IMG/VR virus record: IMGVR_UViG_3300032294_002612
Coordinates: 1 to 64,000 of that record
Reading direction: 5' to 3' (one strand)
DNA: 64,000 nt
Origin: a virus
Part shown: positions 17,908-25,928 of the stretch, piece by piece
Position numbering within the stretch: the first letter of the stretch is position 1
Layout of the letters: every line of letters starts with the position of its first letter
Made by a program: the position numbers and the translations under genes
The notes under the pieces: generated by a model
The model's input: only the letters and a program-made list of their open reading frames with translations
What the model was told of the DNA's origin: nothing
The model's database searches: none

Positions 17908-17982
17908 GTAAAGTGCTAATAATCAAGCACTTACAGCGGCGCGCCCCGCCGCGCAGCGTAAGTCGTTGAAAATGAGGCACTT
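17908..17982. repeat. Composite palindromic element, copy 1
   Basis: Left arm pair GTAAAGTGCT/AAGCACTTAC, then core GCGGCGCGCCCCGCCGCGC, then right unit GTAAGTCGTTGAAAATGAGGC...CACTT. Arms differ from copy 2 (GTGCT with AGCAC) while still able to pair. Confidence 0.8.
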
Positions 17983-22516: not shown

Positions 22517-22587
22517 GGGGGTGAAGCATTAAAGTGATGCAACGGACTTTTAATCCGTAGAAGAGGGCGCGTTACCCTCCATCCCCA
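22517..22587 (+). tRNA. tRNA-Lys(TTT)-like, non-canonical loops
   Basis: A complete cloverleaf folds: acceptor GGGGGTG/CATCCCC, D stem GCAT/ATGC, anticodon stem ACGGA/TCCGT with loop CTTTTAA, T stem GAGGG/CCCTC. However, the D loop TAAAGTG lacks the GG pair and the T loop is CGCGTTA instead of TTCRANY. Both halves of the usual D-T contact are therefore missing. No CCA is encoded. It may be a divergent tRNA or a tRNA mimic. Confidence 0.65.
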
Positions 22588-23071
22588 CCCCATTATCAAA
22601 TTCCCAATGATGATTAGGACAAAGCAACATTAGATTATCTATATTATTAATCTCTGATAATTTGCAATCATCTGCAAAATCTGCAATAGATTTTTTATGA
22701 GCGACTTCAACATGATTCGAATAGCCACAGAATTGACAAATTTTTGGCATATCTTTCATTACAACTTTGCGTGAATGCCATCTAATGTAAGCATACGCTG
22801 CTCCATGAGTATGCTTTTCATAGATCATTTCTTTTTTAGTCGGATTTCTATTATATAATAAATTATTCTTGTTTTTTGTTTTGCAATCAAGACAGTAACA
22901 ATTTATAGCAAGATCTTTTTTAAGAAATAATTTTTTACAACTTTTGCAAGCTCTATATCCAGCTTTCCTTTTTGGGGTTATCCTATTATTAAAAGATGCG
23001 GCACAACTTTGTGAACAAAATTTTTTCTGTTCTCTACCCAAGAGTTCTTTATCACAATTAAAACATTTCAT
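22550..23071 (-). CDS. HNH homing endonuclease with zinc ribbons
   Basis: 173 aa. N-terminal treble-clef-like Cys motifs (CFNCDKE, CSQSC, CKSCKK, CLDC) precede an HNH domain: CQFCGY, VEVAHKKS, LCPNHHWEFD (about residues 110-160). Free-standing HNH enzymes spread by cutting alleles that lack them. The last residues (GMEGNAPSSTD) and the stop codon are read from the antisense strand of the tRNA-Lys-like gene. A TGTGTAAGTATATG element stands before the ATG. Confidence 0.8.
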   Translation of the reverse strand: MKCFNCDKELLGREQKKFCSQSCAASFNNRITPKRKAGYRACKSCKKLFLKKDLAINCYCLDCKTKNKNNLLYNRNPTKKEMIYEKHTHGAAYAYIRWHSRKVVMKDMPKICQFCGYSNHVEVAHKKSIADFADDCKLSEINNIDNLMLLCPNHHWEFDNGVGMEGNAPSSTD

Positions 23072-23086: not shown

Positions 23087-23179
23087 TATTCGAAAAGAAG
23101 AAGCCTAAAAAATATATTTGTTAATGTTTCAAGACCCTCCCATCCCACAAAACTTTCTGAAAAAATTTCAAAAAACCCG

Positions 23180-23208
23180 TTGACAAAATCCTCAAAAAGA
23201 TTTATTCT
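23180..23208 (+). promoter_or_regulatory. Sigma70-type promoter, leaderless geometry
   Basis: TTGACA, 17 nt, TATTCT, then 6 nt to ATG 23215: one of the best matches in the window. Confidence 0.75.
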
Positions 23209-23214
23209 TAAAAC

Positions 23215-23478
23215 ATGAAAGCACTACTAAACAAAGTCAAACTGGCAATCGCAGACTCTAAACTTGGAGTTCTGACCAACCCTGTGTATCGTCTGAAATA
23301 TCGTCCTTACACGGATCACGGAAATGATGAGGTTCACACCTACTACGTTTCCCGACCCTTCGATGGGTTTGCCAATGGTATCACCGCCTACTGCTTCGGC
23401 AAAGGTGTTCGTAGGTTCCGCTTCGACGAAATCGTTGAGCGTGAAGTCGTATCGCTCTTTGGAAAATCTGTGGCGTAA
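23215..23478 (+). CDS. Small unrecognised protein upstream of the large RNA
   Basis: 87 aa, beta-rich (RPYTDHGNDEVHTYYVSRPF). No family recognised. The structured-RNA region begins directly after its stop, so this promoter may also transcribe the RNA. Confidence 0.6.
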   Translation: MKALLNKVKLAIADSKLGVLTNPVYRLKYRPYTDHGNDEVHTYYVSRPFDGFANGITAYCFGKGVRRFRFDEIVEREVVSLFGKSVA

Positions 23479-24321
23479 AGCCACGAATAACAATCTGCCC
23501 GACAATCAATATCGGAAATAAAAGAAGCAAAGTTAACCGGATCTTTGCGGTGGCGCGAAAGCGAAAATAAAACATCCGCCGAGGCAGATAAACATTTACA
23601 AGTAGCCCGAAAAAATATCGGAAACAAAAGCAGGACAGAATAGCGTCTGTCATCATATACAAAACGCACCGAGGCTTGACTTTAAATATCTACGAGGTAA
23701 ATGCCAGAGGGAACTGGCGCCCACGCGTAGAGAATAAACTCCCACAATTTTAGTTCTTTTACATCTTGAGGGCTGACTCCTCCCAGAAGGGGGAGAGCGC
23801 GCAGAAGAAAACCAGAGGAATTAACCTCCAGCCCACAACTTTGAGACGTTTGAATGGATTGATGGACGCATCAGACTTTCAGAACCGAGTTGCCCGAATG
23901 GGTGAAGGTGCAGTGCTTCGGGTAGCTGGTTACGGTGCTAAGCATATAGCTTAGAGTGCCACAGCACACGGCCTTCCGTCTCATAATACTCTCCCAAGCT
24001 CTGGCGGATACATCTCCGTTTACCTTGTGAGCTAGTCGTCGAAAGGCGATTCGATGTCGGTGCCGCCAGAAGGCACGGAGTCATAGGCAGGGAGTTCTGG
24101 CCTCCCTGTCAACACTTTCTTTGAAAAAAATCGCCGTGGAGTAACGGTCCACTAGTCAGAACCTACTGATGAATAAGAGTAAGCTGTTCGTGACAGCAAT
24201 AAAGGGGATGGTCACCGCCGACCCGCAAGCGGCTTGCGTTAGCTGGTTAGTGCTGCAAAGTATTAGCCCCCATTTGATCCGCAAGGAGACGATGATGGGA
24301 AGCATGGCAGCCGACACTTTC
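23479..24321 (+). ncRNA. Candidate large ornate structured RNA (GOLLD/ROOL-like)
   Basis: About 840 nt without a convincing gene, but full of strong hairpins. GGCTG (23771) pairs with CAGCC (23829) around two inner hairpins, one of them GAGG-AATTAA-CCTC. CGTC-GAAA-GGCG is a GNRA tetraloop at 24037. GTGCC pairs with GGCAC at 24060-24076, and CAGGGAG with CTCCCTG at 24088-24108. Length, phage setting and a tRNA gene directly downstream match what is known for GOLLD and ROOL RNAs, phage-borne RNAs of unknown role. I see no marks of rRNA, tmRNA, RNase P or a group I intron. The family assignment is inference; exact ends are unknown. Confidence 0.6.
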
Positions 24322-24393
24322 GCACCTTTCGCCAAGTGGTAAGGCCAGAGTCTGCAAAACTCTTATACGCTGGTTCGAATCCAGCAAGGTGCT
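24322..24393 (+). tRNA. tRNA-Cys(GCA)
   Basis: Acceptor GCACCTT/AAGGTGC, anticodon stem AGAGT/ACTCT with loop CTGCAAA, T arm GCTGG-TTCGAAT-CCAGC. No encoded CCA. Lies directly after the large RNA and directly before element copy 5. Confidence 0.92.
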
Positions 24394-24460
24394 CATTATC
24401 AACGAGTTACAGTGGCGCGCCCCGCCGCGCGCCGCAAGTCGTTGAAGACTAAGAACTTAT
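24393..24460. repeat. Composite palindromic element, copy 5
   Basis: Left half-unit ATTATCAACGAGTTAC, core GTGGCGCGCCCCGCCGCGCG, right unit GCAAGTCGTTGAAGAC then TAAGAACTTA. The left arm is truncated by the tRNA-Cys end. Confidence 0.75.
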
Positions 24461-24477
24461 AAATAATAAAAAGACTA

Positions 24478-24505
24478 TTGACAATCTTTTAAGATGTGAT
24501 AAAAT
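24478..24505 (+). promoter_or_regulatory. Sigma70-type promoter, near-leaderless
   Basis: TTGACA, 16 nt, TAAAAT, then 7 nt to ATG 24513. Confidence 0.7.
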
Positions 24506-24512
24506 ATAAAAA

Positions 24513-24965
24513 ATGGAAACACCACTCATTAAACTATTTGATGTTATTCTGCATCCAATTCTAAAGAAGTCATGGATTCATTTCCAAATTGAAGCTACCG
24601 ACGAAACAGGTAAAAAATACTATGACAATTCATCTAGTTATGGATGTTATGATCCTCCCTACCCTGCTTTCCCATGTTATGCTGGAGAAAATCATTTTAC
24701 AAATAAACATCCTTATGGTTATACATTAGAGCAATTTGATGTTAATAAAATAATGAGAAGGCTTGATACTTATCAATGGGTTGCTGGCATTAGGTCTGTT
24801 AAGTTTAGTAATCAAGTTTATGTTTGTCCTAAAACCTATGCTGTTTGGGAATTTATTAATAAGGAAATAGAAGGAACTTCTCACTTTGAAATAAAAGAGT
24901 TGCCCAAAAATACAAAAAATGTTCGCGTGTGCGACGAACAAAAAAGTATCCTATATGATTACTAA
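24513..24965 (+). CDS. Unrecognised protein
   Basis: 150 aa, rich in aromatic residues, Pro and Cys (GCYDPPYPAFPCYAGENHF). It is more AT-rich than its neighbours, so possibly from a different source. No family recognised. Enclosed by element copies 5 and 6. Confidence 0.65.
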   Translation: METPLIKLFDVILHPILKKSWIHFQIEATDETGKKYYDNSSSYGCYDPPYPAFPCYAGENHFTNKHPYGYTLEQFDVNKIMRRLDTYQWVAGIRSVKFSNQVYVCPKTYAVWEFINKEIEGTSHFEIKELPKNTKNVRVCDEQKSILYDY

Positions 24966-25202: not shown

Positions 25203-25928
25203 ATGATCACCACACAACTACCACTACCCATGCGCTGCTCCTCTGATGCTCTCGTTCAGCCAGAGCTTGAACTCAAACCTACGCGCAATCCTTCCTACTC
25301 TCGCGTCGAACGCTTCTTTGATTCTTTGGATCGTTCGCGTGTTGTGTCATACACCGACTACTGGAACTCTGTTGCCCCTCAAAAAACAGAAGATGCAATG
25401 TTGCGCTGGCTCTTTGCTTTTATGTCAGTCCATACGAGTTGGAAGTCCAACGTCAATGGCTACAATGCAATCAAGACTATGGATTGGTTACAAGACCAGA
25501 TGGTCTTGTTAAACAAGCTCAAGCATAGTGGCGTTGGCTTGCACAACAATCGCACAAAATTTGTCTGGCAATTCCAGAAAAACTTTTGGGGTGATGTCAA
25601 AAAGTATTCTCACGCTCCTACGGATTGGCGCGGTCATCGTGACGAGTTGGTTAGCGAAGTGCTTGGCCTTGGCAAAGCAAAAGTCTCTTTCTCGTTGGAG
25701 ATGATTCATCCCGACAAGTGCGAAGTTGTTTGCATGGACACTCATATGTTCCAAGCCTACTCGCTCGACCAAACCAAAGACGAAAAACATTACGATAACA
25801 TCGAAGCCCATTGGATCACAATGTGCCGTGCCTATGACGTTCCTTGCTACATTGCGCGTTGCCTTTACTGGGACGCAATCCAGAACAAACAGGATTCGCG
25901 CTACTGGTCGTATGTTTTTGAGGCGTAA
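25203..25928 (+). CDS. HhH-GPD (endonuclease III)-like protein
   Basis: 241 aa. The stretch LVSEVLGLGKAKVSF followed by VVCMDTHMF (about residues 150-180) resembles the helix-hairpin-helix plus catalytic Asp loop of DNA glycosylases such as Nth. The usual catalytic Lys position is not clear and no Fe-S cluster is seen. It may recognise modified or damaged bases, or be an inactive relative. Family similarity is by pattern only. Confidence 0.5.
   Translation: MITTQLPLPMRCSSDALVQPELELKPTRNPSYSRVERFFDSLDRSRVVSYTDYWNSVAPQKTEDAMLRWLFAFMSVHTSWKSNVNGYNAIKTMDWLQDQMVLLNKLKHSGVGLHNNRTKFVWQFQKNFWGDVKKYSHAPTDWRGHRDELVSEVLGLGKAKVSFSLEMIHPDKCEVVCMDTHMFQAYSLDQTKDEKHYDNIEAHWITMCRAYDVPCYIARCLYWDAIQNKQDSRYWSYVFEA

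Follow-up and report, generated by a model that had tools for sequence, protein, structure and literature searches.

A candidate phage multi-RNA operon: exchangeable structured RNA modules between an 87-amino-acid protein gene and tRNA-Cys

Background

Passages of PMC12286853 describe GOLLD RNAs (Rfam RF02032) as phage RNAs, often longer than 800 nucleotides (nt), that lie near transfer RNA (tRNA) genes and set a conserved part beside a variable one: the 3' region is universally conserved, the 5' region less so, and tRNAs sometimes occupy the linker. ROOL RNAs (RF03087) appear there as large structured phage RNAs near tRNA islands, and the functions of such large phage noncoding RNAs are said to be still poorly understood. 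Here we analyse a locus with a similar setting in 64,000 nt of viral DNA (positions 1 to 64,000 of IMG/VR record IMGVR_UViG_3300032294_002612), hereafter the window, whose coordinates are used below. About 840 nt (23479-24321) separate a gene for an 87-amino-acid (87-aa) protein on the 5' side (23215-23478) from a tRNA-Cys gene on the 3' side (24322-24394), and an earlier note on this DNA had read them as a candidate GOLLD- or ROOL-like RNA. Their anatomy is unlike that of either family, being a string of exchangeable modules around a constant core and not one fold conserved from end to end. We think it probable that the locus is a phage multi-RNA operon of swappable cassettes.

Exchangeable modules around a constant core

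Relatives of the locus were sought in IMG/VR by pattern scans and by scans with the 87-aa protein. Ten further records carry the same 87-aa gene, one of them on a contig that ends inside module A. Because L033 and L034 have identical match patterns, and L035 and L036 are the same, by eye, wherever both exist, the set reduces to eight distinct arrays. Their module orders were read by eye, 5' to 3' from the stop codon of the 87-aa gene, and checked by sequence comparison:

Window: A-B-C-D-E-F-H-tRNA
L033: A-B-X-C-D-F-H-tRNA
L038: A-B-C-I-D-F-H-tRNA
L032: A-X-B-D-F-G-H-tRNA
L035: B-K-F-G-H-tRNA
L037: C-B-I-L-F-G-H, no tRNA
L039: A(shortened)-B-C-J-E-F-tRNA
L040: A-J-M-F-G'-N, no tRNA

At least 15 module types (A-N and X) make up these arrays, with gain, loss or exchange of whole modules. 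Three of the assignments made by eye, namely X in L033, G' in L040 and the diverged 5' half of H in L032, have no whole-module BLAST match. Most modules are closed by a predicted helix of their own, with A/T-rich linkers between them. The chain lies on the same strand as the 87-aa gene and follows it directly, with no recognisable terminator; relatives keep this flanking gene and module F and swap the other modules whole. Even tRNA-Cys, which ends six of the eight arrays, is an optional member. In the window the array and its immediate flanks are as follows:

23180-23208, plus strand: sigma-70-like promoter, TTGACA-17-TATTCT, 10 of 12 matches; best-scoring candidate upstream of the array
23215-23478, plus strand: 87-aa protein gene, a WYL-like small beta-barrel by weak assignment; directly upstream of the array
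23493-23589, plus strand: module A, closed by the helix ATCTGCC/GGCAGAT; 6 of 8 distinct arrays, with a shortened copy in L039
23604-23676, plus strand: module B, paralogous to A and closed by the helix AGCC/GGCT; 7 of 8 distinct arrays
23689-23763, plus strand: module C, hairpin 23689-23731 plus a tail
23770-23834, plus strand: module D, three-helix unit (GGCTG/CAGCC); 5 pairs changed on both sides
23842-23983, plus strand: module E, 142-nt multi-helix domain; window and L039 only
23989-24111, plus strand: module F, constant core, 123 nt; in all 8 distinct arrays
24127-24316, plus strand: module H, about 190 nt in the window (164-195 nt across the six aligned sequences); 9 pairs changed on both sides
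24322-24394, plus strand: tRNA-Cys (GCA), final array member; missing from L037 and L040
24395-24462, plus strand: palindromic intergenic repeat at the end of the array; the record has 8 copies at E<=0.01, none outside the window

A covariance model of module F finds one match each in 10 of 12 records, among them the window; the misses are the contig cut inside module A and the record of L049, described below. Pairwise identity of F across the eight arrays is 88.6-97.6%. The module contains a GNRA hairpin (24034-24051), whose loop alternates between GAAA and GCAA among relatives, a 9-base-pair hairpin (24086-24110), and two complementary 7-nt loops, GCCAGAA and TTCTGGC, at 24065-24071 and 24095-24101. 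Pairing between these loops is put forward as a hypothesis only, because neither of them ever varies and covariation is therefore uninformative; as an alternative, GCCAGA pairs with an upstream TCTGGC in the minimum-energy fold of seven of the eight copies.

Modules A and B share the motif CCCGA..TATCGGAAAyAAAAG..CCGAGGC, and the linker AGTTCTTTTACA (23752-23763) occurs once in each of the eight arrays. Between the window and L033, module B is identical at 76 of 76 nt and modules D, F and H at 98.6%, 97.6% and 96.8%, against 56% amino acid identity for the terminase and 84.3% DNA identity for the 87-aa gene, where 32% of third positions are changed. Judged by these figures, the RNA modules appear to be conserved beyond the protein in this pair.

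Modules outside the arrays and in distant relatives

Two module types also stand alone. A scan with an A/B pattern located in L049 an A/B-type element that we take as genuine, with a second copy 1.4 kilobases (kb) away. The L049 record has neither the 87-aa gene nor module F nor this terminase, and in the 10.9 kb of it that were compared a single protein has a match, at 57%, in the record of the window. The other type is module M, which L145 and L151 carry by itself, preceded by a small open reading frame (ORF) and followed by a terminator-like hairpin. By eye, closing helices vary within both types: TCTGCC/GGCAGA in A, AGCC/GGCT in B and TCGCC/GGCGA in L049, and TTTCC/GGAAA versus TCTCC/GGAGA in M. 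It is mainly because these types stand alone that we prefer independent RNAs to one giant RNA.

Another repeated motif, gGCyTGACGAGTTTTT..., precedes the A/B-type elements of L049 (528-640 and 1728-1764), and this record may hold RNA families of its own. In Acetobacter phage phiAP1 a stretch opposite a hypothetical coding sequence (L159, 701-745) is 81% identical to module M over 47 nt (E 0.2); by eye it is without the closing helix, and its inner helix is changed and still pairable.

A terminase scan gave 96 relatives, of which 80 were kept, and synteny then gave 14 stretches. The A/B pattern was present in none of 48 of the 80 relatives, while the L049 record alone has two. By tblastn (E<=0.1) a relative of the 87-aa protein is encoded in six of the 14 stretches (L146-L150 and L153); the other eight gave none, and these may not reach the locus. 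The contents of the slot after this WYL-like gene vary. L148 and L150 have a common structured bead, in which a helix changes from CTAGC/GCTAG to CCAGC/GCTGG, L146 has a bead resembling one in L149, and L153 has tRNA-Asp. The L147 slot contains one strong hairpin and then TTTT, with the look of a plain terminator. In L149 a protein 55% identical to the 87-aa protein is followed by other structured beads and by tRNAs including tRNA-Thr. Within L149 15070-15416, where beads lie between tRNA genes, one sits inside a terminator-like stem (GCTAGGGGACAA...CCCTAGC, then TTTTTTT) and another is tRNA-like by eye, though not called by ARAGORN.

BLAST found no match among INPHARED phages for the region, the core or the 87-aa protein, and none in PLSDB for the region. 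INPHARED searches with the L040 and L037 arrays gave weak matches only, including the phiAP1 match to module M and two of 22 nt in Acinetobacter phages. Matches to six Prevotella Lak records (90% over 30 nt, E 0.8) are taken as chance because the match in the one record read lies within a 584-aa reading frame. The same view is taken of ten 18-mer matches in bacterial genomes, where alignments span only 16-21 nt, and of pattern matches in L001, L002, L047, L048 and L050. Our search of the open-licence literature found no account of this locus or of similar arrays.

Structure and coding potential

The whole stretch folds at -266.9 kcal/mol, compared with -243.3 +/- 7.8 for 20 dinucleotide shuffles (z -3.0), a value that taken alone is modest support for structure. 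Within this fold, 178 of 236 pairs are internal to modules, whose separate energies total -247.5 kcal/mol. Folded singly, the modules give z-scores of -2.2 (A), -0.9 (B), -1.4 (C), -2.8 (D), -3.7 (E), -2.8 (F), -2.3 (G), -2.1 (H), -0.8 (I), -2.5 (J), -1.3 (K), -4.7 (L), -1.7 (M), -4.6 (N) and -3.2 (X).

Covariation was counted in small alignments (at most eight distinct sequences each), on structures drawn from the same sequences and against shuffles that ignore relatedness. Module F (8 sequences) has five pairs and eight cells changed on both sides, with 99.7% of cells paired (0/500 shuffles); further pair types are reached by 71/500 shuffles, and slid-register controls give at most one pair. 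Both-side changes affect five pairs in module D (4 sequences; 2/500 shuffles), four in module G (3 sequences; 7/500) and nine in module H (6 sequences; 7/500), where 14 cells are changed (0/500) and 81.6% are paired. Compensatory changes support the predicted helices of F, D, G and H and, weakly, those of A and C. G-U pairs at several helix positions, which would be A-C mismatches on the other strand, fit the plus strand.

The elements singled out in the earlier note are among these helices. Its GAAA tetraloop hairpin is real, at 24034-24051, with four pairs changed on both sides among homologues; so is its stem at 24086-24110, where one pair changes from C-G to U-A; and its GGCTG/CAGCC unit, at 23770-23834, shows both-side changes in all three helices. 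The note had also seen no credible gene here and had named a protein-coding frame conserved across relatives as contrary evidence. Eleven ORFs of 30-93 aa, chosen on both strands for overlap with 23479-24321, were compared with the seven other distinct arrays, and none inside the region is intact in all seven. Most are broken or missing in relatives, and two of them, within module H, remain open in no array other than L033. On the antisense strand, an ORF that falls largely within the 87-aa gene (23227-23505) has no stop codon over its aligned part in six of the seven arrays, at 58-72% identity, which is below that of the 87-aa protein. The region is a large structured noncoding stretch of phage DNA, as first observed.

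Comparison with Rfam families

Infernal cmscan was run against Rfam 15 on the window at gathering score and on 23180-24520 at E<=10 with permissive filters. Neither GOLLD nor ROOL appeared at gathering score or at E<=10, and membership of RF02032 or RF03087 is rejected for want of a covariance-model match. At gathering score tRNA was the sole family reported, and at E<=10 the output consisted of the tRNA and one sub-threshold Plastid-ycf2 match on the tRNA complement; no module matches the tRNA model, to which tRNA-Cys alone responds within 23180-24520. Across 10 records neither RF02032 nor RF03087 exceeded its cut-off, with no true positive control responding for either model, and the GOLLD model gave two weak matches elsewhere in two records (E 0.7 and 1.3). 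Hammerhead-like and hepatitis delta virus-like readings (CTGATGA in H; nested pairings in F) were considered by eye and dropped; no such Rfam family appears at E<=10.

The family assignment of the earlier note is thus unsupported, and its description of a large, structured, noncoding, tRNA-adjoining region holds. The homologues show compensatory changes in several modules, tRNA-Cys adjoins at 24322-24394 as proposed, and a promoter-like site with 10 of 12 matches is located at 23180, where a promoter had been placed.

Flanking signals and neighbouring genes

The region contains four promoter-like sites, compared with 1.6 +/- 1.5 in shuffles. Both hexamers of the promoter-like site at 23180-23208 are shared by L003/L004, and a second candidate, with 9 of 12 matches, lies at 23090. 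Terminator-like sites in the region also number four, every one on the minus strand; the region scan found none on the plus strand within the array. Module H ends 5 nt before tRNA-Cys.

The palindromic repeat at the end of the array (ATCAACgacTTAC...GTAAGTcgTTGA) is possibly a terminator or a repetitive extragenic palindromic (REP)-like element. Other copies of this G/C-rich repeat start at 17919, 19199, 20768, 22022, 26405, 29665 and 32127 (span 17.9-32.2 kb), and similar copies occur in related loci. Upstream of the 87-aa gene, 22517-22587 matches the tRNA model at 47 bits, by Rfam only and with ARAGORN negative, and overlaps the 3' end of an opposite-strand HNH endonuclease gene (22550-23071). 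In L008 and L013 the 87-aa gene has a tRNA-Lys 58-66 nt before it. The arrangement looks like a homing-type insertion. Downstream, the product of the gene at 25203-25928 resembles, below cut-off, an 8-oxoguanine-type helix-hairpin-helix (HhH) DNA glycosylase. By eye, this gene comes directly after the array in five of the eight distinct arrays; in the window a 150-aa gene without a family match lies between the two. Viral genes of the record include those for terminase, a DnaB-like helicase and DNA polymerase.

The 87-aa protein

The window protein has no Pfam or NCBIfam match and no useful PHROG match. A related family of 88-90 aa in distant relatives aligns with it by hhalign (96% over 53 columns). 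Pfam WYL (PF13280) matches three distant relatives at 13.2-14.2 bits, below the cut-off of 21.8, and matches neither the window protein nor its L149 relative. An AlphaFold model of the protein, with a predicted local distance difference test (pLDDT) of 66, is similar to barrels of the WYL and Hfq/Sm kinds, with Z about 6, a level that the tool calls common. Structure matches include the WYL proteins PafBC and BrxR (Z 5.9-6.5) and DriD, all at 17-23% identity, interspersed with Hfq, lipoproteins and ribosomal proteins. Sequence-profile searches of the PDB gave no WYL structure, one returning a Talin-2 match at E 0.69 and the other nothing. A WYL accessory protein of Cas13d is described, in passages of PMC8209922, as binding single-stranded RNA; that the 87-aa protein may bind RNA is our guess.

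Proposed operation and alternatives

If the locus is a multi-RNA operon, one transcript from the 23180 promoter would carry the 87-aa protein, the modules and tRNA-Cys. Ribonuclease (RNase) P would cut at the 5' end of the tRNA and host nucleases at the A/T-rich linkers, and cleavage would yield several small RNAs acting in trans. Module F could supply a function or an anchor common to the arrays, perhaps by pairing via its two complementary 7-nt loops, and the shared flanks could be homology arms for cassette exchange between phages. As guesses, the variable modules might be host-directed RNA effectors or decoys for takeover or counter-defence, and the small WYL-like/Sm-fold protein an RNA-binding partner or regulator. 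Genes for counter-defence or takeover show fast cassette turnover between close relatives. We chose this function because such turnover typifies these genes, and we offer it tentatively. More tentative still is the fuller picture of an RNA anti-defence island, in which many unrelated structured RNA effectors, each working by itself against its own host target, would be processed from one transcript and passed between phages behind a conserved small RNA-binding protein of WYL/Sm fold and a constant RNA core.

Several points weigh against the operon reading. Transcription, processing and function of the array are things that we infer, and binding and counter-defence are guesses. The presence of F in every array could equally reflect one integrated RNA, and the module F model matched in none of the 20 longer records of the 80 listed terminase relatives. 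Alignments hold no more than eight distinct sequences, judged by shuffles blind to relatedness, and changes in module C (4 sequences, 2 pairs, 67/500 shuffles) and module A (6 sequences, 1 pair, 80/500) are not significant. Pairing reaches only 60% in one of the four helices of module H, and six changed pairs persist in that module when the register is slid by 2. Single-sequence folds of B, C, I, K and M are weak (z -0.75 to -1.70), and the WYL assignment is based on sub-threshold matches and a pLDDT-66 model.

The array might instead be one large ornate RNA of the GOLLD/ROOL kind, with F as the core and the other modules as variable peripheral domains, perhaps multimeric via kissing loops. 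Such an RNA would suit the size, the phage origin and the neighbouring tRNA, would recall the GOLLD layout of conserved 3' region, less conserved 5' region and occasional linker tRNAs (as outlined in PMC12286853), and would account for an F module with two perfectly complementary 7-nt loops in all eight arrays. Yet Rfam offers no match, the modules are clean units that are lost freely, the A/B and M types stand by themselves elsewhere, and both the pairs (178/236) and the energy (-247.5 of -266.9 kcal/mol) lie largely within modules; the loop pairing, being invariant, gives covariation no test of kissing. We regard a single RNA as unlikely. If the modules were instead a long regulated leader, cis-acting elements such as attenuators, riboswitch-like units or RNase-stability structures would tune tRNA-Cys or stabilise the 87-aa transcript. 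The shared strand, the absence of a plus-strand terminator-like site inside and the L147 slot, with only a terminator-like hairpin and TTTT, are in keeping with this, but L037 and L040 keep modules without the tRNA, the number and kind of modules are too variable for one cis function, and no link between transcription and translation is visible, so that a leader seems improbable.

Exchange of whole modules and the adjoining palindromic repeats could also reflect conservation of the DNA itself, for example where secondary structure in a single strand serves recombination, replication or packaging. The G-U pairs in the helices, a GNRA loop alternating between GAAA and GCAA, and a location, consistent in strand, with a promoter-like site on one side and a tRNA on the other speak for RNA and make this very improbable. 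Hairpins arising by chance in degenerate noncoding sequence, or a gene missed by annotation, might seem to fit a full-length z of only -3.0 from 20 shuffles; the homologues contradict them, with high conservation across phages, compensatory changes and no frame kept, and we give them almost no credence. The multi-RNA operon remains our preferred reading.

Relation to known systems

Phages of this set provide a natural deletion and swap series, in which most modules are present at the locus in some members and missing in others, and two module types stand alone. The question of one big RNA or many small ones, and the job of each part, are therefore directly testable.

Both GOLLD and ROOL differ from the locus in giving no model match. 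The variable part is here a chain of mostly unrelated, exchangeable modules, and, unlike ROOL, the locus has no conserved single architecture. Module F is constant, as is the 3' region of GOLLD, but lies inside the array, flanked on either side by variable modules. GOLLD is also an RNA that forms a multimeric cage. In phage T4, species 1 and 2 are stable small structured RNAs strung with tRNAs in the tRNA cluster. The present locus differs from these in the far larger number of its module types and their rapid exchange, and in having module F as a constant core and a fixed gene upstream.

Other large phage noncoding RNAs are the approximately 800-nt noncoding transcript of ICP1 and the long noncoding RNAs of phage K, which their authors compare with GOLLD and ROOL (PMC7567579, PMC9241854). 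Module swapping is not mentioned in the passages of those papers that were consulted, and our comparison with them is by description. RNA anti-CRISPRs (Racrs) are likewise small RNA effectors encoded by phages, which can be acquired one at a time (PMC10651486); Racrs mimic CRISPR repeats, whereas the modules here are mostly multi-helix RNAs. Should the modules be effectors, structured RNAs would gain at least 15 types absent from Rfam at gathering score, and phages would seem to exchange RNA tools in the form of cassettes, just as they exchange proteins. The array speaks for a set of viral RNA tools not yet charted, and not for one of the known giant RNAs.
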